From: a virus | Strand: one strand, 5' to 3' | DNA length: 20,750 nucleotides | Virus record (IMG/VR): IMGVR_UViG_3300020450_000120 | Coordinates: 1 to 20,750 of that record | Shown: in pieces, positions 6,877-20,557 of the stretch | Layout of the letters: every line of letters starts with the position of its first letter | Numbering within the stretch: the first letter of the stretch is position 1 | Position numbers and translations under genes: made by a program | The notes under the pieces: generated by a model | Database searches by the model: none | Seen by the model: the letters and a program-made list of their open reading frames with translations, nothing else | Told to the model about the DNA's origin: nothing

Positions 6877-7503
6877 ATGAGTTTACTTGATACAAGACCT
6901 AAAGCAGAGGTAAAGGATTTTATATACATTAAAAAAAATTCTATTACAGAGTCCTTTTGTGAACATGTAATTGCAAAATTTAATGAAGACCCTAGAAAGG
7001 GTGATGGTGTCATAGGTTTTAATGCTCAGAGAGTTGACAAGACAGTTAAAGATACAAAAGACATTCATATATCCACTGCCGAGGGATGGGAAAATGAAGA
7101 TAAAATATTTTTTGATGCACTTGGTATAGGTTTACAAGAATATAGTGAGTATCTTGAAAATTTAAATGAGGGATGTTGTAAAGGATTTCCAAACCCCACA
7201 TTTAATTCATCTGATACAGGATATAAAGTACAAAAGTATCAGCCAAATGGACATTATCATTGGCACCATGATTGGTCAATGTCTGCAAATCCTGTTGCAT
7301 CAAGAGTTTTTACTTTTATGTGGTATCTGAATACTATAGAAGAGAAAGATGAGGGATATACGGAGTTTGCAGATGGCACTAGGGTTCAGCCTGTTTGTGG
7401 TAATTTAATATTCTTTCCTGCCACTTGGACATTTCTACATCGCGGATACCCACCCAAAGTTGAAAAATATCTATGTAATGGTTGGATTCATTCAAGACCC
7501 TGA
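6877..7503 (+). CDS. 2OG-Fe(II) oxygenase (prolyl-4-hydroxylase-like)
   Basis: A 208-aa protein of the 2-oxoglutarate/Fe(II) dioxygenase superfamily, which couples oxidative decarboxylation of 2OG to hydroxylation of a substrate. The double-stranded beta-helix core spans residues about 110-206. The iron ligands are H130-x-D132 (in HWHHDW) and distal H188 (FLHRG). K197, in VEKYLC, is placed to bind the 2OG carboxylate. The preceding GNLIFFPATW is the usual strand before the distal His. The substrate is unknown; small enzymes of this kind are common in marine T4-like phages. The gene lies directly after a tail-fibre gene, which allows but does not prove a virion-protein target. The start has a weak GGGA about seven bases upstream. 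Confidence 0.85.
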   Translation: MSLLDTRPKAEVKDFIYIKKNSITESFCEHVIAKFNEDPRKGDGVIGFNAQRVDKTVKDTKDIHISTAEGWENEDKIFFDALGIGLQEYSEYLENLNEGCCKGFPNPTFNSSDTGYKVQKYQPNGHYHWHHDWSMSANPVASRVFTFMWYLNTIEEKDEGYTEFADGTRVQPVCGNLIFFPATWTFLHRGYPPKVEKYLCNGWIHSRP

Positions 7504-11000: not shown

Positions 11001-13972
11001 TCTATCGAAATGATACTATAAGTGAATACATCAAAGACATACAAGATGGTGTTTATCATCTATTTGTTCTTCATGCAGATAGTCAAATTACAACTGAATT
11101 TACAGATTTAAAATATGGACAAAATGTTGCTGACTTATATCCACAACTTGATCGAGATAATAATCATTCTAACCCTCCTTCATCCAAATCATTCGCAAAA
11201 AGAGATCCATTAGGTGAAGTTGCTACAAATGATCAAAGACATAGTATAACCAGAGAAACATCTGATAAATTAGTTCAAGATTTTGGTTATGGTAAGAGAA
11301 TCACAGGAGAGGATAGAGATACCACAGCTGGAATTTCTACTATTACATTTGATAGACCTCATAGGTTTGGTCAGATCAAAAAAGTCGCATCAATCTCTGC
11401 ATCTGGAAGTGGTTTAACAAATGGTGTTTATCATAATGTTAAATTACTTAATTCAGCTGCTCCAAATAATTGGGATGGTGCAACTGCGAAGGTCACAGTT
11501 GCAAGTAATGCAGTTACAACAGTTGATATAATTGATGGTGGATCTGGATATACAAATGGAGAGACACTTGATATTGATAATACAATAACAGGAGGATCTG
11601 GTGCGAAAGTAACCATTGCAACTGTTGGTATCACAACTAACATAGGTGATGTTTTACAAATCACAGGTATTGGTACTGCATCTGATTCACTTCATAGAAT
11701 AAGAACAATTGAATCTACAACTAAGGTTTCAATTGCTGTTACTGCTGGTGATTCAACAATAGTTGCTGGACAGTTTGCTATCAATCAAGGCCCATCTGCA
11801 ACAATCACTGGTGCACCAGTGTTTGATTCATCAGTTGGTATTACAACATTTACTGTCACATCAGGACACGGACTTTTAGTTGGTAATCAGTTCCGAGTAT
11901 TAGATACATCTAATCAAAATGTTGGTAACTTCTTTGTTAATAATGTGAACAGTCCCACAGTGTTCTCAGCGAAGACAACAAATCAAATAAGTAATCCTGC
12001 ATTTATTCTACGAGATGGAATGACTGCATCAACTCAACCATCTGATAAGGAAAATGAAAATATTGGATCAAGAGGTTTATCATTCTATGATGGTGAAACA
12101 TTTACTTTAGGTGCAAATGTTACTACAGGAACATTAGTTACAGTCAATCTACCTAATGTGGGTGTTGGAACAACTGCGAGATTTGATTTAGGTTCTTATC
12201 TACAGGTAGGTAATGAAATCTTGAGAGTTGTTGATGCAGAAATTCAAGGTGCAGGTGACAATCAACTATCTGTGATTCGTGGTGCGTTAGGTACAATTCA
12301 AGAAGATCATACTTCAGGTGATCTTATTAGAAAGATTAAACCAGTTCCAATTGAGTTCCGTAGACCTTCTATTATTCGTGCATCTGGTCATACATTTGAA
12401 TATCTTGGATTTGGGCCCGGTAACTACTCAACTGCATTACCACAGGTACAGGTCAGGACACTTAATGAACGTGAAGAGTTCTTAACACAGTCACAAGAGA
12501 GATCATGTGGTACTGTTGTTTACACAGGTATGAACAACAGAGGTGACTTCTTCATTGGTAACAAGAGAGTTAGTTCTGCAACTGGTCAGGAGAGAACATT
12601 TGATGCTCCAATACCAACTGTCACAGGTGAAGATCCATCAAGACTATCAGTTATCTTTGATGAAGTAATTGTCAAGGAAAGATTAGTTGTTGAGGGTGGT
12701 AAGTCAAGAACAATTCTTACACAGTTTGATGGCCCAGTTACATTTAATGAGGTTGTAAAAGTCAATAAGGATATCACATTCAATGGAAGTATGAAGTTGA
12801 ATAATCCTTTTAGTGTTAAAGATGATACAAATTCACACTCAAAAGATACTGGTTCAATCGTAACTGATGGTGGACTAGGTGTTGAGATGAACTTGAATGT
12901 AGGTGAAAACGTTACAGTTGGTGGTGGAACAACACTTGCTAACTTGAATGTTACAGGTATAGCAACATTCAGTGGATTATTAGATGTCAATGCAGCAGAG
13001 GTTGGTACTTTTAAAATTGGAATCACCACTGCTAATATGCTTGGCACAACTTCAGGTAATATTATTATTGATTCTCAGGGTGGTACAACAACAATAAATG
13101 ATAACCTATCAGTATCAGGTAACTTTACCAATGCTGGAACACAGGCTGGTAATATTCGTATTGGTATTACAAATGACAATGAAATTGACACATCAACAGG
13201 TAATTTAAAAATTAACTCTCAGGGTGGTACAATCACAATTGAGGATAATTTAATTGTTACTGGAAACATTGAAGCAACACAAGGAACATACCGATTTGAT
13301 AATATTGAGTTAAATGGAAATGAGATCACTACTCTTAATGGAACTGGATTGACATTAGACTCAGCTAGTGGAACTACCACTGTTGATGATAACTTATCTG
13401 TCACAGGAAATATTTCACTCTCTGGTAATTTTAATGGAACATCTGTTATTTTCAGTGGAAATGTTGTTGCTGCTGGAGGTACATTTGGAAATGTTGAGGT
13501 CGGGGTAGCAGATAATCAAACAGTTACAACATCATCTGGTAAGTTAATATTAGATTCATCTACAAATGAGGTAGAGGTAAATGCTGACATAGATCACAAT
13601 GGTGCATTAAATACATCTGGTAATTTGGTATGTGGTGGAAGTGGTACATTCTCAAATGATGTGATTGCATTTAGTTCTTCTGACATTAATCTTAAGAAGG
13701 ACATTACACCAATTGATAATGCACTTGATATGGTTAACAGAATAAGTGGTAATACATTCACTTGGAATACGAGTTTACTTGATCTTATTCCATATGAAAA
13801 TGGTACGAAAGATACTGGTATTCTTGCACAGGAAGTTGAGGCACTTGGACTACCGGGCCTTACAACTACAAGACATGATGGTGTGAAAGCAGTCCGCTAT
13901 GAAAGATTGATACCTGTTTTAATCGAAGCAATTAAAGAACTAAAATCAAAAGTAGAGGATCTTCAAAAATGA
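8099..13972 (+). CDS. Giant modular tail-fibre protein with C-terminal S74 chaperone
   Basis: A 1957-aa virion fibre protein. The N-terminus (residues 1-100) has GNSLAQPFKTIQRALLESAR and a pectate-lyase-like start, common in large marine phage fibres. Four beta modules with an H-[GNR]-[LF] core lie around H316, H883, H1088 and H1257. A GxGY segment (DGGSGYTNG) sits near 1145. Four imperfect repeats of about 45-55 residues form a shaft at about 1635-1845. The C-terminus is an intramolecular chaperone of the endosialidase type (peptidase S74): S1861-D-I-N-L-K1866 matches the SDxxLK self-cleavage dyad, then ITPIDNALDMV and TGILAQEVEALG follow. In that family the domain trimerises the fibre and cuts itself off before Ser, here releasing 97 residues. 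The gene starts behind a GATAAATA motif and overlaps the next gene by four bases. Confidence 0.85.
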   Translation: MPLNKLENFIKNTEGKILYVNPNDLDATDSVENRGNSLAQPFKTIQRALLESARFSYVEGNNNDIIEKTTILLFPGDHLIDNRPGFGLKINPSNTNQALAVSPAGAETPVADTLSLTLSSNFDLNQEDNLLYKFNSINGGVIVPRGTSLIGLDLRKTKIRPKYVPNPTDVSVGNSAIFRLTGTCYFWQFSIFDGDESGTVFTDPVDFSDLNRSKPTFSHHKLTCFEYADGVNIDSRFNLTDLDIYYSKLSNSFNQLTRFIDPVDRFPANPLGFAAQRPEFEIVGAFASDPINITNIISGNSSTPSSIITVTTATEHGLTTNTPIKIKGVGQNEVERNYNISTKVQTVISDKVFTYLLPFVPTDLNANPSSSGATVTIETDTVSGASPYIFNISLRSVYGMNGMHADGNKATGFKSMVVAQFTAISLQKDDRSFVKYDPLSRTYKGIGIVKQTGALLATESSAKKAEEVYHLDSGAVYRKGFETTHIKLSNDAVMQIVSVFAIGFNKHFNAETGADASVTNSNSNFGQFAIASDGFKKEAFSKDDTAFITNIITPKAIDNSEIDVDWQRIDVGLTTSVGITSHLYLFGFNTKDNVPPVVIQGYRVGAKTDDKIFVDFSNATAGYGTSEASVFLVDNSISNTGSTAALGSTSSVKLFIVNSGPSSDNILTLGNHTLLTGEKIRVISDDGDLPERLVENTVYFAIRVSSTEIKVASSKTNAELGTAIAIVGGSKLKIESRVSDKASGDIGSPIQFDAGNSNWYIHASTNNDIYKTLNAVGVGGLGNNTPVSFIKRVPDERPLDEKIYKLRVVVPKELSNGKNPEEGFIIQESSATNVRSNSDFTLGKLQDATNNAIPDYNFDRNPRFITTASRVGATVTVTTDIPHNLKVGERIFVKNITDNQGTATGVFNKGYNGSFLVSGIVDDKRFQYLSTDTDGVTHTIGTFTNDISTRTTLLPLFERNDLKSNFYIYRNDTISEYIKDIQDGVYHLFVLHADSQITTEFTDLKYGQNVADLYPQLDRDNNHSNPPSSKSFAKRDPLGEVATNDQRHSITRETSDKLVQDFGYGKRITGEDRDTTAGISTITFDRPHRFGQIKKVASISASGSGLTNGVYHNVKLLNSAAPNNWDGATAKVTVASNAVTTVDIIDGGSGYTNGETLDIDNTITGGSGAKVTIATVGITTNIGDVLQITGIGTASDSLHRIRTIESTTKVSIAVTAGDSTIVAGQFAINQGPSATITGAPVFDSSVGITTFTVTSGHGLLVGNQFRVLDTSNQNVGNFFVNNVNSPTVFSAKTTNQISNPAFILRDGMTASTQPSDKENENIGSRGLSFYDGETFTLGANVTTGTLVTVNLPNVGVGTTARFDLGSYLQVGNEILRVVDAEIQGAGDNQLSVIRGALGTIQEDHTSGDLIRKIKPVPIEFRRPSIIRASGHTFEYLGFGPGNYSTALPQVQVRTLNEREEFLTQSQERSCGTVVYTGMNNRGDFFIGNKRVSSATGQERTFDAPIPTVTGEDPSRLSVIFDEVIVKERLVVEGGKSRTILTQFDGPVTFNEVVKVNKDITFNGSMKLNNPFSVKDDTNSHSKDTGSIVTDGGLGVEMNLNVGENVTVGGGTTLANLNVTGIATFSGLLDVNAAEVGTFKIGITTANMLGTTSGNIIIDSQGGTTTINDNLSVSGNFTNAGTQAGNIRIGITNDNEIDTSTGNLKINSQGGTITIEDNLIVTGNIEATQGTYRFDNIELNGNEITTLNGTGLTLDSASGTTTVDDNLSVTGNISLSGNFNGTSVIFSGNVVAAGGTFGNVEVGVADNQTVTTSSGKLILDSSTNEVEVNADIDHNGALNTSGNLVCGGSGTFSNDVIAFSSSDINLKKDITPIDNALDMVNRISGNTFTWNTSLLDLIPYENGTKDTGILAQEVEALGLPGLTTTRHDGVKAVRYERLIPVLIEAIKELKSKVEDLQK
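13001..13630 (+). repeat. Four imperfect fibre-shaft repeats within the S74 fibre
   Basis: Four units of roughly 45-55 codons share the pattern G-x-x-x-[IV]-G-[IV]-x, then T-x-[ST]-G-[NK]-[LI]-x-[IL]-[DN]-S, then a D-[ND]-L-x-V-[ST]-G-N end. Examples are GNIIIDSQGGTTTINDNLSV and GNLKINSQGGTITIEDNLIV. The third and fourth units are more diverged. Such units usually form the trimeric beta shaft before an S74 domain. Confidence 0.6.
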
Positions 13973-15030
13973 CACTACCATCGTCAGGTGAAATTTCACT
14001 TAAAAACATAGCAAATGAGTTTGGTTATACAGAATCTAATGGAACTACAACCAAATTAGGATCATATCGAACCACAAACGGACAGGGTAACTTTCCTGTC
14101 TCTTTTGGTGATTTACAGTTTAATTCTATTGATGCACGAACTGGTGGATCAGTTCCAACTGGATCTTCACAAATAGCACTTTCTGATTTTTATAGTACAA
14201 AACTTCATACTGTAGTAAATTTTTATAGTGGATCGACAGAGAATAGAGAAGTAGCAAAAGACAAATATAATAGTTCAAGTGCAGATGATGTTCAAACAGT
14301 TGGTAACTATAAAAGACCACCCAATTCACGTAATACTAAAGTTCATATCCATGTCAATAAATCCATCGGGTCAGAACATACAAATATTAAACATTGTGCA
14401 TTAAAAACTGGATTATGGGATACAAATACCGATTTACAAGTTGATGTCGGTGGATCAGGAAGAATTTCAGGAGCTGGTGGTACTGGTGGTGCTGGATCTA
14501 CTAATTCTGGAAAAGGAAAAGATGGATTGGATGGATCATCAGGATTAGGTATTCAATACAACGGAACAATTGTGACTGTGGCATCAGGTGGTTTTATCCA
14601 AGCAGGATTTGGTGGAGGCGGTGGAGGCGGTGGAGGATATGACCACGATAAAAATTCAGATCGTACAGCCTCTGGAGGAGGAGGTGGCGGTGGAGCAGGT
14701 ATTCCGGCCGGAGCTGGTGGAGCAGAGGGAGGTGGAGGAACAGAGGGAGGCCCCGGAACTGCTGGTAATGAAATTAATGGGGGGACTGGCGGTTCTTCAT
14801 CAAATAATGATAATGAAGCAACCGGTGGTGAAGGTGGTGATGGTGGAGATAGAGCTGGATCTGCTGGTGAGGGTGATATTGGAACAGGTGGTGAAGGTTC
14901 TCAATCAGATGGTGGAGATCCCGGAAGTCCCGGAGCCGCAATAAGGAGAACTTCAGGATTTACTGTGACTATAGATGCCACATCACTAAGTCGTATTCAT
15001 GGAGACAAAAATTCTGTAGATGTGCTATAA
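13969..15030 (+). CDS. Glycine-rich tail-fibre tip protein, gp38-adhesin-like
   Basis: A 353-aa protein. The N-terminal 75 residues contain PSSGEISLKNIANEFGY and then QIALSDFYS, a fibre attachment motif seen in many phage tail proteins. Residues about 75-160 are a beta domain. Residues about 160-325 are dominated by Gly runs, including nine Gly in a row (215-223), separated by short polar loops. The C-terminus (GAAIRR, then GFTVTID) ends in beta strands. This resembles the gp38-type adhesins of T2-like and S16-like phages, where Gly-rich stretches pack as polyglycine-II helices and the loops between them set host range. That comparison is by composition and layout only. Several X-Pro-Gly triplets (DPG, SPG, GPG) are present. 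The start has AGAGGA at 13954-13959 and overlaps the S74 fibre stop by four bases. Confidence 0.65.
   Translation: MTLPSSGEISLKNIANEFGYTESNGTTTKLGSYRTTNGQGNFPVSFGDLQFNSIDARTGGSVPTGSSQIALSDFYSTKLHTVVNFYSGSTENREVAKDKYNSSSADDVQTVGNYKRPPNSRNTKVHIHVNKSIGSEHTNIKHCALKTGLWDTNTDLQVDVGGSGRISGAGGTGGAGSTNSGKGKDGLDGSSGLGIQYNGTIVTVASGGFIQAGFGGGGGGGGGYDHDKNSDRTASGGGGGGGAGIPAGAGGAEGGGGTEGGPGTAGNEINGGTGGSSSNNDNEATGGEGGDGGDRAGSAGEGDIGTGGEGSQSDGGDPGSPGAAIRRTSGFTVTIDATSLSRIHGDKNSVDVL
14611..14637 (+). repeat. GGTGGAGGC 9-bp repeat coding a nine-glycine run
   Basis: Two exact copies of GGTGGAGGC are followed by GGTGGAGGA. They stand out as G-rich DNA in an AT-rich genome and are prone to slippage that would lengthen or shorten the Gly run in the probable adhesin. 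Confidence 0.7.
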
Positions 15031-15069: not shown

Positions 15070-15633
15070 ATGGCATTTGAAACTGATTTGATAAGGAGAT
15101 ATAGTGGTGCTTTTACAAGGGAAGATTGTGAAAAAATAATAGAGGGTATTAAATTTTTTGAAAAACATCATTTACTTGTATATGATAAACAAAAATTAAA
15201 TAGAGTTGATAATAAAACTGTAAATATAACACATGATTACACTTTTTCTGCATCAAGTAGGTTAGCAGAGGAGATATTTCCTAAATTTAAACCTTGTGTT
15301 GATGAATATGTAGAAACATTTGGAGTTTTGAGTCAAAGAAAATTCTTATTACATGATATTAAACTGAAAGAGATACCAGCTGGAGGAGGATTTCATGCTT
15401 GGCATTATGAAAATGGGGGATTAGAAGTCTCTGCAAGACAATTTGTAGTTCAACTTTATTTAAATGATGACTTTGATGGTGGGGAGACTGAATTTTTATA
15501 TCAACAAAGAAGAGAGGAAGCGGTCACGGGTGACGTACTCATGTTTCCAGCCTCATTCACTCATACTCATAGAGGAAATCCACCGTTGGGTGGTACTAAA
15601 TATATTGCTACATCATGGGGAATATTACAATGA
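15070..15633 (+). CDS. 2OG-Fe(II) oxygenase, HxE variant
   Basis: A 187-aa protein of the prolyl-4-hydroxylase-like branch. The N-terminal helical part (residues 10-35) has FTREDCEKIIEG. The core runs from about residue 90. The metal motif is H112-Y-E114 (in FHAWHYENGG), so the usual Asp is Glu. The distal His is H167 (THTHRGNPP) and K177 (GTKYIA) is the likely 2OG anchor. FDGGETEF and GDVLMFPASFTHTHRG are typical strands of the family. It resembles the oxygenase at 6877 in its last 60 residues, so the two may be distant paralogues. Family members with Glu in this position exist, so activity is still likely. The substrate is unknown; the position after a glycine-rich adhesin suggests a structural-protein target but this is inference. 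Confidence 0.82.
   Translation: MAFETDLIRRYSGAFTREDCEKIIEGIKFFEKHHLLVYDKQKLNRVDNKTVNITHDYTFSASSRLAEEIFPKFKPCVDEYVETFGVLSQRKFLLHDIKLKEIPAGGGFHAWHYENGGLEVSARQFVVQLYLNDDFDGGETEFLYQQRREEAVTGDVLMFPASFTHTHRGNPPLGGTKYIATSWGILQ
15617..15621 (+). promoter_or_regulatory. Ribosome binding site deciding the start at 15630
   Basis: GGGGA lies eight bases before the ATG at 15630. That ATG overlaps the upstream stop as ATGA, the junction used elsewhere in this window. An ATG at 15615 is also in frame but has no Shine-Dalgarno before it. Confidence 0.6.
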
Positions 15634-16453: not shown

Positions 16454-16955
16454 AAACATTATGACTTACGGTATTGATAGAACAAAGACTGTAATAAACA
16501 CTTCTTTTAAATTAATAAAAAATATTAGATTTAATAATGATCGAGAAATACAGGAGATGATTCATAAACTGGATCTTCTCAAAACTGAAAAATTCAATAG
16601 AGTTCTTATACCTGATTTTAATTATAGTATTCGAGATAATTTTTTAATTTACAATGTTGATTTTATAAAAGGTTATCCTCTAGGAACTGCTACAGAACCT
16701 TTTATTAGTATTGTTAAGGAGGATGTGGTTGAAAGAGATTCTGATTGGACATTTTCTGATTATCATATGACTAATTTCATAGTTGAGGCTCAAACTGATA
16801 AATTATATGCTGTAGATTTTCAATCTTTTAGTTACATCCCTGATAAAAATTTAAGGAGAGAAATATGGAATAATTGCCAACAAACTCACCAACAAATTTT
16901 TAAAGGTATATCAAACAATAAATGGGTCAGACCTAAGATAAATTACACGCATTAA
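16443..16955 (+). CDS. Miniature protein-kinase/APH-like protein
   Basis: A 170-aa protein from this start. Two segments resemble the C-lobe of the kinase or aminoglycoside-phosphotransferase fold. FLIYNVDFIKGYPLG looks like the hinge (usual form l-x-m-e-y-i-x-G-x-x-L). SDYHMTNFIV, then LYAVDFQSF, looks like the catalytic loop and the metal-binding Asp: D106-x-H-x-x-N111 and D125-F126. No glycine-rich loop or ATP-lysine lobe of usual size precedes it; only about 70 residues lie before the hinge. It may be a reduced kinase, a pseudokinase or a sugar-kinase-like enzyme. The start is uncertain: ATGs at 16413, 16443 and 16461 are in frame. I chose 16443 for the GGGAG at 16426-16430 and short overlap. 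The end overlaps the next ATG by one base. Confidence 0.55.
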   Translation: MEYRNIMTYGIDRTKTVINTSFKLIKNIRFNNDREIQEMIHKLDLLKTEKFNRVLIPDFNYSIRDNFLIYNVDFIKGYPLGTATEPFISIVKEDVVERDSDWTFSDYHMTNFIVEAQTDKLYAVDFQSFSYIPDKNLRREIWNNCQQTHQQIFKGISNNKWVRPKINYTH

Positions 16956-17452
16956 TGATTACAAAAAAAGAACTTCAAAAAATTTATGAGTGGGCAAAAC
17001 AAACTCACTTCCCATTAAAAAAAGCACCAACAGCTGAGGGGTATTCCAATAAAGATATTTACATTTCTTGGTTGAAGGGTGCAGGTAAAAAAGTATTCAT
17101 TCGTAAAAAAATTATGACTGATGAAGTTGTTGATATTTTGTTAAAGGACGAGATTATTTTCGCAACTTTTTCTACGTTTGAATCTGGAACTATTTTAAAT
17201 CCTCATCGTGATCCTGACGTATATCCTTGTCGGTACAAGAGAATACAACTTCCACTTAGGATTCCTAATCGAAATCATTGTTTTATGATTTGGGATAATA
17301 AGAAAATACTTTGGAAGGAGGGAGTAGCTCAGGTGTACCCTGTTATGGATGTAACACACGAAGGATATAATCTCTCGACAAAACCAATGGAATTTGTTAT
17401 GATAGATGTAAAACTAGATACTATTGTAGAAAATGAAACTTACTCGCAATGA
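16955..17452 (+). CDS. Aspartyl/asparaginyl beta-hydroxylase-like 2OG oxygenase
   Basis: A 165-aa protein with the layout of the aspartyl/asparaginyl beta-hydroxylase family: H84-R-D86 in LNPHRDP, then RIQLPLRIPN, then a W-x-x-G segment (ILWKEGVAQVYPV), then distal H135-E136 in THEGYNLS, then FVMIDV. H84, D86 and H135 would bind iron. In the family the 2OG-binding Arg lies ten residues after the distal His; here that place is Met (M145), with Lys143 close by. It may therefore use Lys, bind 2OG differently, or be inactive. The core is near the minimum size for the family and there is no signal peptide. It begins at a TAATG junction with the kinase-like gene, so the two are translationally coupled. 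Confidence 0.7.
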   Translation: MITKKELQKIYEWAKQTHFPLKKAPTAEGYSNKDIYISWLKGAGKKVFIRKKIMTDEVVDILLKDEIIFATFSTFESGTILNPHRDPDVYPCRYKRIQLPLRIPNRNHCFMIWDNKKILWKEGVAQVYPVMDVTHEGYNLSTKPMEFVMIDVKLDTIVENETYSQ

Positions 17453-17615
17453 GGTTATGCTTTTGAGAGGTGCATTATATACAAAAAGAATGTATAAAGG
17501 TATGAAACATATCCCTCATGGTGCGGTTGTGTGGGAAGATTGGATGGAGGATAGTTTTGTAAAAGTAAATAAGTATGTTAAAGAACACTACCCTGATATG
17601 CCAGATTGGAAATAA
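17433..17615 (+). CDS. Small hypothetical protein, 60 aa
   Basis: No family is recognised. The protein is basic and mostly helical at the start (TRNEVMLLRGALYTKRMY) and ends in an aromatic-rich acidic part (VVWEDWMEDSF, HYPDMPDW). It overlaps the hydroxylase-like gene by 20 bases and its stop overlaps the next ATG by one base. Continuous tight packing and the lack of an alternative explanation for this gap support it as a real gene. The ATG has only a weak ribosome site, but the overlap could couple its translation to the gene before. Confidence 0.5.
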   Translation: MKLTRNEVMLLRGALYTKRMYKGMKHIPHGAVVWEDWMEDSFVKVNKYVKEHYPDMPDWK

Positions 17616-18238
17616 TGCAAGACTTAAATGTTAAATTATTTGATACTCCATTTCCTCATTTAATTGCTAAGAATTTTTATGATGAGTCTGAATTAAAACT
17701 TATCTGGGAAGAACTAGATTTTTATACTAAAGATGGTAAATTGTTTGAAGCCAAAGATTTTGGTGGAGTTGTAGATAAAACAAATTCTAAGGCAATATTT
17801 TTAGATGATGTTTATTCAAAAAAATATCGAAGACTCTCAAACATTCTAACTGTTAATCGTAAAATATTTGATGATAGGATTCTTGAAGCATTTTCTTACA
17901 TTCACGATTGTTGTTCGATTGCAAAATTTGTAAATTATGATGTAACTAAAGTTAGATATTATCATAATGATGAGTATTATGAACCACATACCGATAAAAC
18001 AGTACAATTTTTAGGATTTTCATATTTTTATCGTGAACCAAAAAAGTTTGAAGGAGGTGAATTAATATTTCCTAAATACAACTACTCGTTTGAATGTGAG
18101 AATAATTCTTTAATCATGATGCCCGGCTGGGTAGAGCATGGAGTATCAAAGGTTAGTATCCATAACTCAGATTATTTTGATGGGTATGGTAGATATGCCA
18201 TTACGAGTTTTTTTAGTAATAGAGAACGTGATAAATAA
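17615..18238 (+). CDS. 2OG-Fe(II) oxygenase (prolyl-4-hydroxylase-like)
   Basis: A 207-aa protein with a complete 2OG/Fe(II) site: H125-T-D127 in YEPHTDKT, distal H175 in VEHGVSKV, and R193 in GRYAITSFF as the 2OG anchor. FEGGELIFP and NSLIMMPGW are the usual core strands. The opening, LFDTPFPHLIAKNFYDE, is the common start of phage and bacterial enzymes of this type. The ATG at 17615 (TAATG junction) is preferred over an in-frame TTG at 17606. Of the oxygenase-like genes here, this one has the most canonical active site. It closes the cassette, and its last codons, GAT AAA TAA, carry a late-promoter motif for the following fibre gene. The substrate is unknown. Confidence 0.85.
   Translation: MQDLNVKLFDTPFPHLIAKNFYDESELKLIWEELDFYTKDGKLFEAKDFGGVVDKTNSKAIFLDDVYSKKYRRLSNILTVNRKIFDDRILEAFSYIHDCCSIAKFVNYDVTKVRYYHNDEYYEPHTDKTVQFLGFSYFYREPKKFEGGELIFPKYNYSFECENNSLIMMPGWVEHGVSKVSIHNSDYFDGYGRYAITSFFSNRERDK
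18230..18237 (+). promoter_or_regulatory. T4-type late promoter motif GATAAATA
   Basis: Identical to the motif at 8063-8070 and likewise embedded in the last Asp-Lys-stop codons of the preceding gene. It lies 19 bases before the ATG at 18257. The predicted leader is about 13 bases and has no clear Shine-Dalgarno. Confidence 0.55.
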
Positions 18239-18256: not shown

Positions 18257-20557
18257 ATGCCTAATATAAGAAAGACTTTTAATTTCAGGGATGGAGTTCA
18301 AGTTGATGACGAGGTTCTCGTTGTCAAAGGTGATCGAGTAGGCCTTGGAACTACATCACCTGATAAGACTTTAGATGTACGAGGTAATGCACAGGTAATA
18401 GGAATCGTAACTGCAAATAATTTAGATATAAGTGGAGTGGGAACATTTGGTGGTATAAAAGTAGGTACAGGAATAACTTTAGATGCAACAAGTGGTGTAA
18501 TATCTGCTACGAGTTTTAAAGGAAACGGTGCAACACTATCTAATTTACCTACTTCACAATGGACAAATGTTAATGTAGTGGGTGCAGGTGCATCACCAAT
18601 TTATGTTGATGGTAATGTTGGTATCTTTACCGAAAATCCTGTAAATAGATTCCAAGTTGGTGGAGATCCCAACAATGGTGTTGGTGTTGGTATCAATTCA
18701 GAAGGAGATATAATAGCATCAGGTATAATTACAGCAACAGATTTCAAAGGGTCATTCATAGGAAATGTAACTGGTAATTTAACTGGAACTGCATCAAACG
18801 CAACCCTAGCAGCCTCTGCAACAGTTGCTACTAATGCACAAGGATTAACAGGCACACCAGATATAACTGTTAATAACATTGAATCAACTGGAATAAGCAC
18901 TCTCCCCACACTTGAAACAACTGATCTTACAGTTCCAACTCTTAAAGGATATAGCACTCTTAGATCAATACATGGTTCTTTAACCACATTAGTTGTGACT
19001 GTGGCCGCAAAGACTTCCGCACATAGGTATAATGGACAAGGAAGCAATAATGGTTTCCTCATAGACGGAGTTTCAGCACCATTTCTAACATTTACACCCG
19101 GCCGCACATATCGTTTTGATGTTTCGGATGGTTCTAACGCACAACATCCTTTACGTTTCTATTATGATGCTGATAGAACAACTGCATATCCATTATCTTC
19201 ATATACAATATCTGGTACTCATGGTACTGGTAGTGCATATATTGAGATAGTAGTAAGTGACACTACACCTACAGTTTTACATTATGGTTGCTCAAATCAT
19301 CCTTTGATGGGAAATGGTATTCAGACAAACTCAAATGTATTAGACACAGAACATAATTCAACAGTCAGAGGATCAATGACTGCTACGAGTTTTGTTGGTA
19401 ACATTACAGGAGATGTTACTGGTAACGTAACTGGTGATGTAACTGGTAATGTAAATGCAACATCAGGTGTATCAACATTTACTACACTTGATATAAATGG
19501 GGATGTTGATATAGACGGACACGCAGAATTAGATGCACTTAATGTGGCAGGGGTGGTTACTGCTACTAGATTTGTTGGTGATATTCAAGGCCCTGTCGTG
19601 GGTAATGTAACCTCACCTGTTTCAAGTATTGGAATTGCCACAGGTACGAGTTTAGGAATTGGAACTGGAACTGCAAATTCAAATATTCAAATTGTAAGTT
19701 CAAGTGCATCATCATTAACTATTGGTAAAGGTGGTGCAGTTGGTGTAAATAACTTGCAACTAAGATATGGAGGTGGGGCTTCAAGATTTAGTGGAAGTAA
19801 TGCACTAGATTTAATTAATAGTGGTGACGGACATTTTAACTACTTCTTAAGTGGAACTAATAGTTTTGTATGGCATAAGGGTAATTCAAATGAGTTAATG
19901 GCACTTACCGATACAGGGAACTTGGGTATCGGAATTACAAATCCATCACATAAGTTATCAGTAGATGGAACTTCAAGGGTTTCAGGAGTTGCTACATTTC
20001 AAAATGCAGTATTCATTGATGGTATATTAACAGTTAATGATGCCACAATTAGTAATCTAACTGGTAATGTTACTGGTAGTATTAAAAGTACTGTTGGTAT
20101 GTCAACTCTAACTCATTTAGAAGCAACTGAAAGTATTGGAATAGGTATCACAGGAAGTGGAAACTTCCTTAATATTTCTGCTGATAGTGGAAAGAGATTT
20201 GTTGTTACAGATTTAGGTCATGTGGGAATTAAAACCACAGGTAGTTCTAGTATTGAACTTGATGTAAGAGGTGATATACGAGCTCAACATGGTCTAGTGG
20301 TTGGTAGAAGTCAACATAGTGAAAAATCAACCCTAGATTTTTCTGATCTTGTAAATATTGATCCTGATGGAACAGGTAATCGTGCTAAAATTGCATATAT
20401 GTTTCCACCAAAAGTTAATAATGCTCAACGAAATGCCTTTGTAAGAAGGAGTAATGGTCAAGCTTTAAGTGCAGCTGAAGATGGTGCGATTGTATATAAT
20501 ACAGATGCAAATAAACTTCAAGTATATGTTCATCCAAATTGGGTCAACCTACACTAA
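18257..20557 (+). CDS. Modular tail-fibre protein with an internal cupredoxin-like domain
   Basis: A 766-aa virion protein. The N-terminus has RKTFNFRDGVQVDDEVLVVKG and then GLGTTSPDKTLDVRG, a common fibre repeat (G-[IL]-G-T-x-x-P) that recurs as GIGITNPSHKLSVDG near 555-570. V-x-G-[IV]-x-T units and GN[IV]TGDVTGN repeats form the shaft. Residues 255-355 are a distinct domain resembling blue-copper proteins, listed separately. The C-terminus, GAIVYNTDANKLQVYV and then a final NWVNLH, is a frequent fibre end that folds without S74. There is no S74 chaperone. A late-type promoter motif lies directly upstream; an ATG-TTT-TGA mini-ORF (18245-18253) sits in the leader. A strong terminator follows. 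Its likely role is a long fibre or a whisker-like protein. Confidence 0.8.
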   Translation: MPNIRKTFNFRDGVQVDDEVLVVKGDRVGLGTTSPDKTLDVRGNAQVIGIVTANNLDISGVGTFGGIKVGTGITLDATSGVISATSFKGNGATLSNLPTSQWTNVNVVGAGASPIYVDGNVGIFTENPVNRFQVGGDPNNGVGVGINSEGDIIASGIITATDFKGSFIGNVTGNLTGTASNATLAASATVATNAQGLTGTPDITVNNIESTGISTLPTLETTDLTVPTLKGYSTLRSIHGSLTTLVVTVAAKTSAHRYNGQGSNNGFLIDGVSAPFLTFTPGRTYRFDVSDGSNAQHPLRFYYDADRTTAYPLSSYTISGTHGTGSAYIEIVVSDTTPTVLHYGCSNHPLMGNGIQTNSNVLDTEHNSTVRGSMTATSFVGNITGDVTGNVTGDVTGNVNATSGVSTFTTLDINGDVDIDGHAELDALNVAGVVTATRFVGDIQGPVVGNVTSPVSSIGIATGTSLGIGTGTANSNIQIVSSSASSLTIGKGGAVGVNNLQLRYGGGASRFSGSNALDLINSGDGHFNYFLSGTNSFVWHKGNSNELMALTDTGNLGIGITNPSHKLSVDGTSRVSGVATFQNAVFIDGILTVNDATISNLTGNVTGSIKSTVGMSTLTHLEATESIGIGITGSGNFLNISADSGKRFVVTDLGHVGIKTTGSSSIELDVRGDIRAQHGLVVGRSQHSEKSTLDFSDLVNIDPDGTGNRAKIAYMFPPKVNNAQRNAFVRRSNGQALSAAEDGAIVYNTDANKLQVYVHPNWVNLH
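19019..19321 (+). other. Cupredoxin-like domain with His/Cys/His/Met ligand set
   Basis: This covers residues 255-355 of the 766-aa fibre. The strands are FLIDGVSAPFLTFTPGRTY, then RFDVSDGSNAQHPLRFYY, then AYIEIVVSDTTPTVLHYGC, then SNHPLMGNG. The pattern of a [PG]-G-x-x-Y-x-F strand, then a His-Pro, then a C-x-x-H-x-x-M loop is that of type 1 copper (plastocyanin-like) sites. The ligands would be H297, C345, H348 and M351. Copper binding is inferred from motif only. The surrounding sequence is ordinary fibre repeat, so this is an inserted module. Confidence 0.65.
19397..19456 (+). repeat. Five 12-bp tandem repeats coding G-[ND]-[IV]-[TN]
   Basis: Five successive four-codon units (Gly-Asn/Asp-Ile/Val-Thr, the last ending in Asn) form part of the fibre shaft. 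Copies differ mostly at third positions. A related GNVTGNLTG stretch occurs earlier at about 18764-18790, so unit number may change by slippage or recombination. Confidence 0.7.

Follow-up and report, generated by a model that had tools for sequence, protein, structure and literature searches.

A predicted cupredoxin-fold cassette with an apparently complete amicyanin-type copper site in a tail fibre of a marine T4-like phage

Why should a phage tail fibre carry what looks like the ligand set of a blue copper protein? The question is raised by a 766-aa protein encoded in 20,750 nt of DNA from an uncultivated marine T4-like virus (the whole of this stretch is called the window here). Two annotated families of tail fibres match the protein, phrog_30742 at E 6e-77 and phrog_3269 at E 2.5e-41, which places it among the phage tail fibres. 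The original prediction, made from the sequence of the window, placed a cupredoxin module with four type 1 copper ligands inside this fibre and took the rest to be ordinary fibre repeat. That reading is largely supported, and outside the module the protein is indeed repetitive, with matches to PHROG tail families. We think it probable that the module is a mobile cupredoxin-fold cassette, bearing an apparently complete type 1 site of the amicyanin kind, and that it has the role proposed below. The parts of the gene and the putative ligands are as follows.

18257..20557, + strand: 766-aa tail fibre protein with the module (open reading frame; PHROG tail-fibre families)
18257..18928, + strand: N-terminal fibre part, aa 1-224, common to the module-less fibres PSSM2_034 (phage P-SSM2) and AG-345-L05
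18968..19336, + strand: predicted cupredoxin-fold module, aa 238-360 (AlphaFold2, Foldseek against PDB, family profile)
19145..19147, + strand: H297, putative first His ligand, just ahead of strand 4 (from sequence)
19289..19291, + strand: C345, putative Cys ligand, end of strand 7, the only Cys in the protein
19298..19300, + strand: H348, putative second His ligand, loop 7-8
19307..19309, + strand: M351, putative axial Met ligand, ahead of strand 8
19379..20554, + strand: C-terminal fibre part, aa 375-766, common to the module-less fibres

The span first proposed, aa 255-355, corresponds exactly to 19019-19321, but the module proved slightly wider, at about aa 238-360. Searched with a family profile, the window gives a single copy, at aa 260-359 of the fibre (E 5e-23). 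Among the fibre genes there are also four 2OG-Fe(II) oxygenase-like genes (6877-7503, 15070-15633, 16955-17452 and 17606-18238), three of the 2OG-FeII_Oxy_3 type and one Asp/Arg hydroxylase (PF05118), the last in position lying directly upstream of the fibre with the module. Their products could hydroxylate fibre proteins. Another gene, at 13969-15030, encodes a glycine-rich fibre-like protein of 353 aa with a weak tail-fibre PHROG match.

All four predicted ligand residues, H297 and C345-x-x-H348-x-x-M351, are present in the sequence. The motif C-x2-H-x2-M occurs once in the six frames of the window and is expected 0.0002 times per protein of such composition. This single occurrence, the fact that C345 is the sole cysteine of the protein, and the retention of the motif across viruses and bacteria rule out a chance motif. 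In plastocyanin-type proteins the loop has the form C-x2-H-x4-M; that of the module, CSNHPLM, is not of this type and has the amicyanin-type spacing. The ligands of amicyanin are His53, Cys92, His95 and Met98, the last three spaced exactly as in the module (PMC12723479).

The fold was predicted with AlphaFold2 from aa 238-365 together with 54 relatives from viral contigs. The model is all-beta, an eight-strand sandwich (pLDDT 92.8, pTM 0.86), in keeping with the seven- to eight-strand Greek-key beta sandwich that defines cupredoxins. H297 stands right before strand 4, C345 closes strand 7, and the loop from there to strand 8 holds H348 and M351; these are the canonical positions of type 1 ligands. 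In this predicted structure, then, the order of strands and ligands is that of the type 1 copper proteins, and the beta-rich segment that had been read from the sequence is recovered, with its strands in cupredoxin order. A Foldseek search of the PDB agrees with the model. Rusticyanin ranks first (E 8e-4, prob 1.00), followed by Cu nitrite reductases, laccases and plastocyanin; nearly all of the top matches are cupredoxins, and the best are type 1 copper proteins, with TM-scores to the solved structures that are moderate, about 0.5. Also among the matches is 2vmj, a nitrite reductase that was given the loop of amicyanin, CTPHPFM. In BFVD the module matches A0A481Z6J5, A0A481YY19, A0A481YWX9 and A0A481Z7Q7 (E 1e-6 to 2e-7), which are 'beta-sandwich' proteins of giant viruses (Pithovirus/Marseillevirus LCPAC/LCMAC).

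Kinship at the level of sequence is more distant. Single-sequence searches with the module matched no curated family. It did not reach the threshold of the Pfam Copper-bind or Cupredoxin families, the only signal being PF00394 Cu-oxidase at 14 bits against a cut-off of 21, nor did it match PF25489 (At5g54830-like), for which relatives among the matches listed reach at most 26.4 bits against a cut-off of 27. Glycosidase-like phmmer matches (E 0.19-0.28) are due to chance, as they vanish with a profile. When a profile of 22 phage copies was searched against PDB sequences, Cu nitrite reductase and pseudoazurin ranked at the top, though with no better than E 0.035 and 0.1; cephalosporin acylase and Ig matches in the same search are at chance level. 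Profile-profile comparison connects the module to known cupredoxins through an uncatalogued bacterial domain of the form HPF...Y-x-C-x2-H-x2-M, itself only weakly related to PF25489 (below the gathering threshold). The phage module matches this clear homologue with a probability of 99.7%, and the bacterial domain matches the PF00127-type cupredoxins at 95.6% with all four ligands aligned. Compared directly with PF00127, the phage module scores 74%, in an alignment that spans C/H/M and leaves the first His outside. The maximum among 30 column-shuffled controls was 3.3%. Most bacterial members have the same four residues, and they are secreted or lipoprotein chains, some consisting of the domain alone (136-160 aa), others carrying it C-terminal to CHRD or Lipoprotein_15 repeats.

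With amicyanin, rusticyanin, pseudoazurin and plastocyanin (PF00127) the module thus shares the eight-strand sandwich and the His before strand 4. It differs from the type 1 cupredoxins in its low identity (about 9-19% over fold alignments), in its position below the Pfam thresholds, in the HPL/HPF that follows the first His, and in being part of a fibre, whereas they are free periplasmic carriers. Cyanophages are known to encode a blue copper protein, the plastocyanin of petE (PMC2984593), but that is the gene of a free photosynthetic carrier and not a domain of a structural protein. In P-SSM2, a reported petE carrier, tblastn with the module found only the fibre module. An origin from cyanophage petE is therefore unsupported, the petE of P-SSM2 being unmatched and the nearest cellular homologue being the bacterial HPF-type secreted domain.

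That the module is an insertion in the fibre, as first proposed, is borne out by homologous fibres that do without it. In P-SSM2, PSSM2_034 matches aa 1-224 and 375-766 and has no cupredoxin; it adjoins a homologue of the large fibre of the window. In the AG-345-L05 fibre, likewise, the two flanking parts are joined with no module between them. P-SSM2 does have the module, in another fibre, PSSM2_295, which marks it as a cassette carried by more than one fibre gene. Its ends are inexact at the residue level. On its N-terminal side, moreover, the sequence is not as long as in P-SSM2 or is longer, and the empty site is therefore not defined to the base. Copies in PSSM2_295, Bellamy gp121, the P-TIM68 fibre and the tail fiber protein family phrog_30742 are about 54-57% identical to the module with H/C/H/M kept; their fibre context is different, and they are annotated only as tail fibres, the domain being unnamed.

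The cassette is widespread. At least 546 viral relatives were retrieved with one conserved stretch, which includes none of the four ligands, and marine viral contigs with the module number in the hundreds; it is also present in secreted bacterial proteins. Isolates that have it include phages of Synechococcus, Prochlorococcus, Methylophilales and Pelagibacter, both myo- and podophages, where it resides in structural proteins, among them tail fibres and baseplate wedge gp7. In P-HM2 gp7 (L033) two copies stand in tandem, the first degenerate at the site and the second with the full C-H-M loop.

Are the four residues conserved as a metal site would be? Among the near relatives found blind to the ligands, 99 of the 100 distinct full-length copies in the matches listed have H, C, H and M, the remaining one reading HSDM. 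Bacteria and viruses were sampled more widely with a ligand-free DNA pattern for NPxLxLxRGxTYxF, chosen because an alignment limited to distant phage copies was too divergent to scan genomes with. Of the other searches, one used stretches with H297 and M351 among six alternatives, and further viral scans used stretches of which some touch ligands. In 359 diverse domains covering the site, both the first His and the C-H-M loop are present in 304, neither in 47, and a mixture in 8. At the first-His column 371 sampled domains have a residue, which is H in 315. Loops of other lengths, C-x2-H-x3-M and C-x4-H-x2-M, are also seen, and cupredoxin loops vary likewise. Among the exceptions is a secreted Verrucomicrobia group (L167, L171, L174, L197 and L233) in which Cys and Met are kept and both His are lost.

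Most of the 47 ligand-less domains form a separate viral group, with for example N...S...D...T at the four positions. This group (L335, L339, L345 and others) is large, and its domain occupies roughly aa 150-310 in a conserved protein with an N-terminus like MATTRTVDFLPEIFQT. The group is also predicted to be cupredoxin (pLDDT 89.2; fold match AcoP, E 1.8e-5), which argues that the fold is independent of copper and weakens the idea that copper is required for folding. Homologues that keep the fold and lose the ligands had been named in advance as what would count against the prediction, and they do exist. However, nearly all of them lack the four residues jointly and belong to this separate group, while the near relatives keep theirs almost without exception, and these two observations argue for a working site in the fibre studied here. 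From the sampled sequences, the four residues appear to be gained or lost mainly as a set. The tree has only 5-7 state changes, and a sign test of joint ligand loss over independent pairs is not significant, so the all-or-none pattern reflects few independent events.

The same ligand-less copies give some weight to a metal-free alternative, namely, a generic beta-sandwich domain for adhesion or spacing, like the Ig-like decorations on structural proteins of phages, whose four residues serve packing or are simply inherited. A related viral group that keeps the fold without all four residues is consistent with this, as are degenerate copies in isolates (P-HM2 gp7 first copy, S-CREM1 and S-SZBM1), and phage proteins fold in the copper-poor cytosol. 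But a metal-free domain sits badly with the full ligand set in 99 of 100 near relatives in the ligand-blind sample and in 304 of 359 overall, and packing poorly explains why viruses and bacteria alike keep a lone free Cys along with two His and a Met in the canonical places; we regard it as unlikely. The cupredoxin scaffold might instead hold Zn, Fe or Ni, since sequence cannot tell the identity of a metal and iron in tail fibres is already known (PMC11705849). His2-Cys-Met with such spacing is, however, the copper site of amicyanin (PMC12723479), which makes another metal very unlikely.

Two further alternatives accept the copper and assign it a different use. A loaded module could be bait, docking on a copper-uptake receptor of the host outer membrane or mimicking a host copper protein. 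No such receptor is known, and some copies of the module belong to baseplate wedge gp7 or other structural proteins, where receptor contact is unnecessary. The idea has a parallel in the Ferrojan horse proposal, in which iron in tail fibres is a comparable bait. Iron at HxH motifs is on record for T4 gp37 and has been suggested for fibres of marine phages (PMC11705849). The nearest cellular relatives, being secreted or lipoprotein domains, also fit, and they point to a possible borrowing of a surface domain from the host; even so, bait seems to us quite improbable. Least probable is a redox module that transfers electrons, or senses redox state or oxygen and thereby triggers rearrangement of the fibre or protects the particle. 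The type 1 ligand set is complete and electron carriers are the closest folds, but no redox partner domain is seen in the fibre or the window, and the module would be an isolated knob on a fibre without an evident electron acceptor.

We therefore return to a copper-binding structural domain. Binding of copper by the module is likely, as judged from a predicted site that is nearly invariant where kept. The function is most likely that of a displayed domain for host contact or fibre stabilisation, with electron transfer or copper piracy less likely. In a fibre trimer each chain would display one globular knob, and its site would be loaded with copper outside the host cytosol, upon lysis or in seawater. 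The metal would then lock the loop bearing C, H and M, so that one end of the knob became a stiff face, resistant to proteases, that could touch the host surface or neighbouring parts of the fibre. Redox chemistry would be possible at such a site and unnecessary for this role.

The literature searched, whose coverage is incomplete, gave no report of a cupredoxin or of a complete blue-copper site in a phage structural protein. What appears new is a cupredoxin whose site is apparently intact, which would serve as a virion surface cassette and which scores above no Pfam threshold. The metal predicted here in a tail fibre has its precedent in the HxH sites of T4 gp37 and, as proposed, of marine fibres; those sites hold octahedral iron between pairs of fibre His, with no cupredoxin domain, Cys or Met (PMC11705849). 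If the prediction is true, copper centres would be a second metal system beside the iron of tail fibres. Because the one fold exists in nature both with and without the ligands, the question of copper is directly testable. As the module recurs in the structural proteins of many marine phages, virus particles may bear copper on their fibres. It is conceivable, if doubtful, that many marine phage particles are equipped, on fibres and baseplates, with working type 1 copper centres for host contact or copper exchange. If loaded, these abundant particles would bind a scarce and partly toxic metal, which would matter for attachment to the host, for the stability of the particles and for the copper chemistry of the sea.
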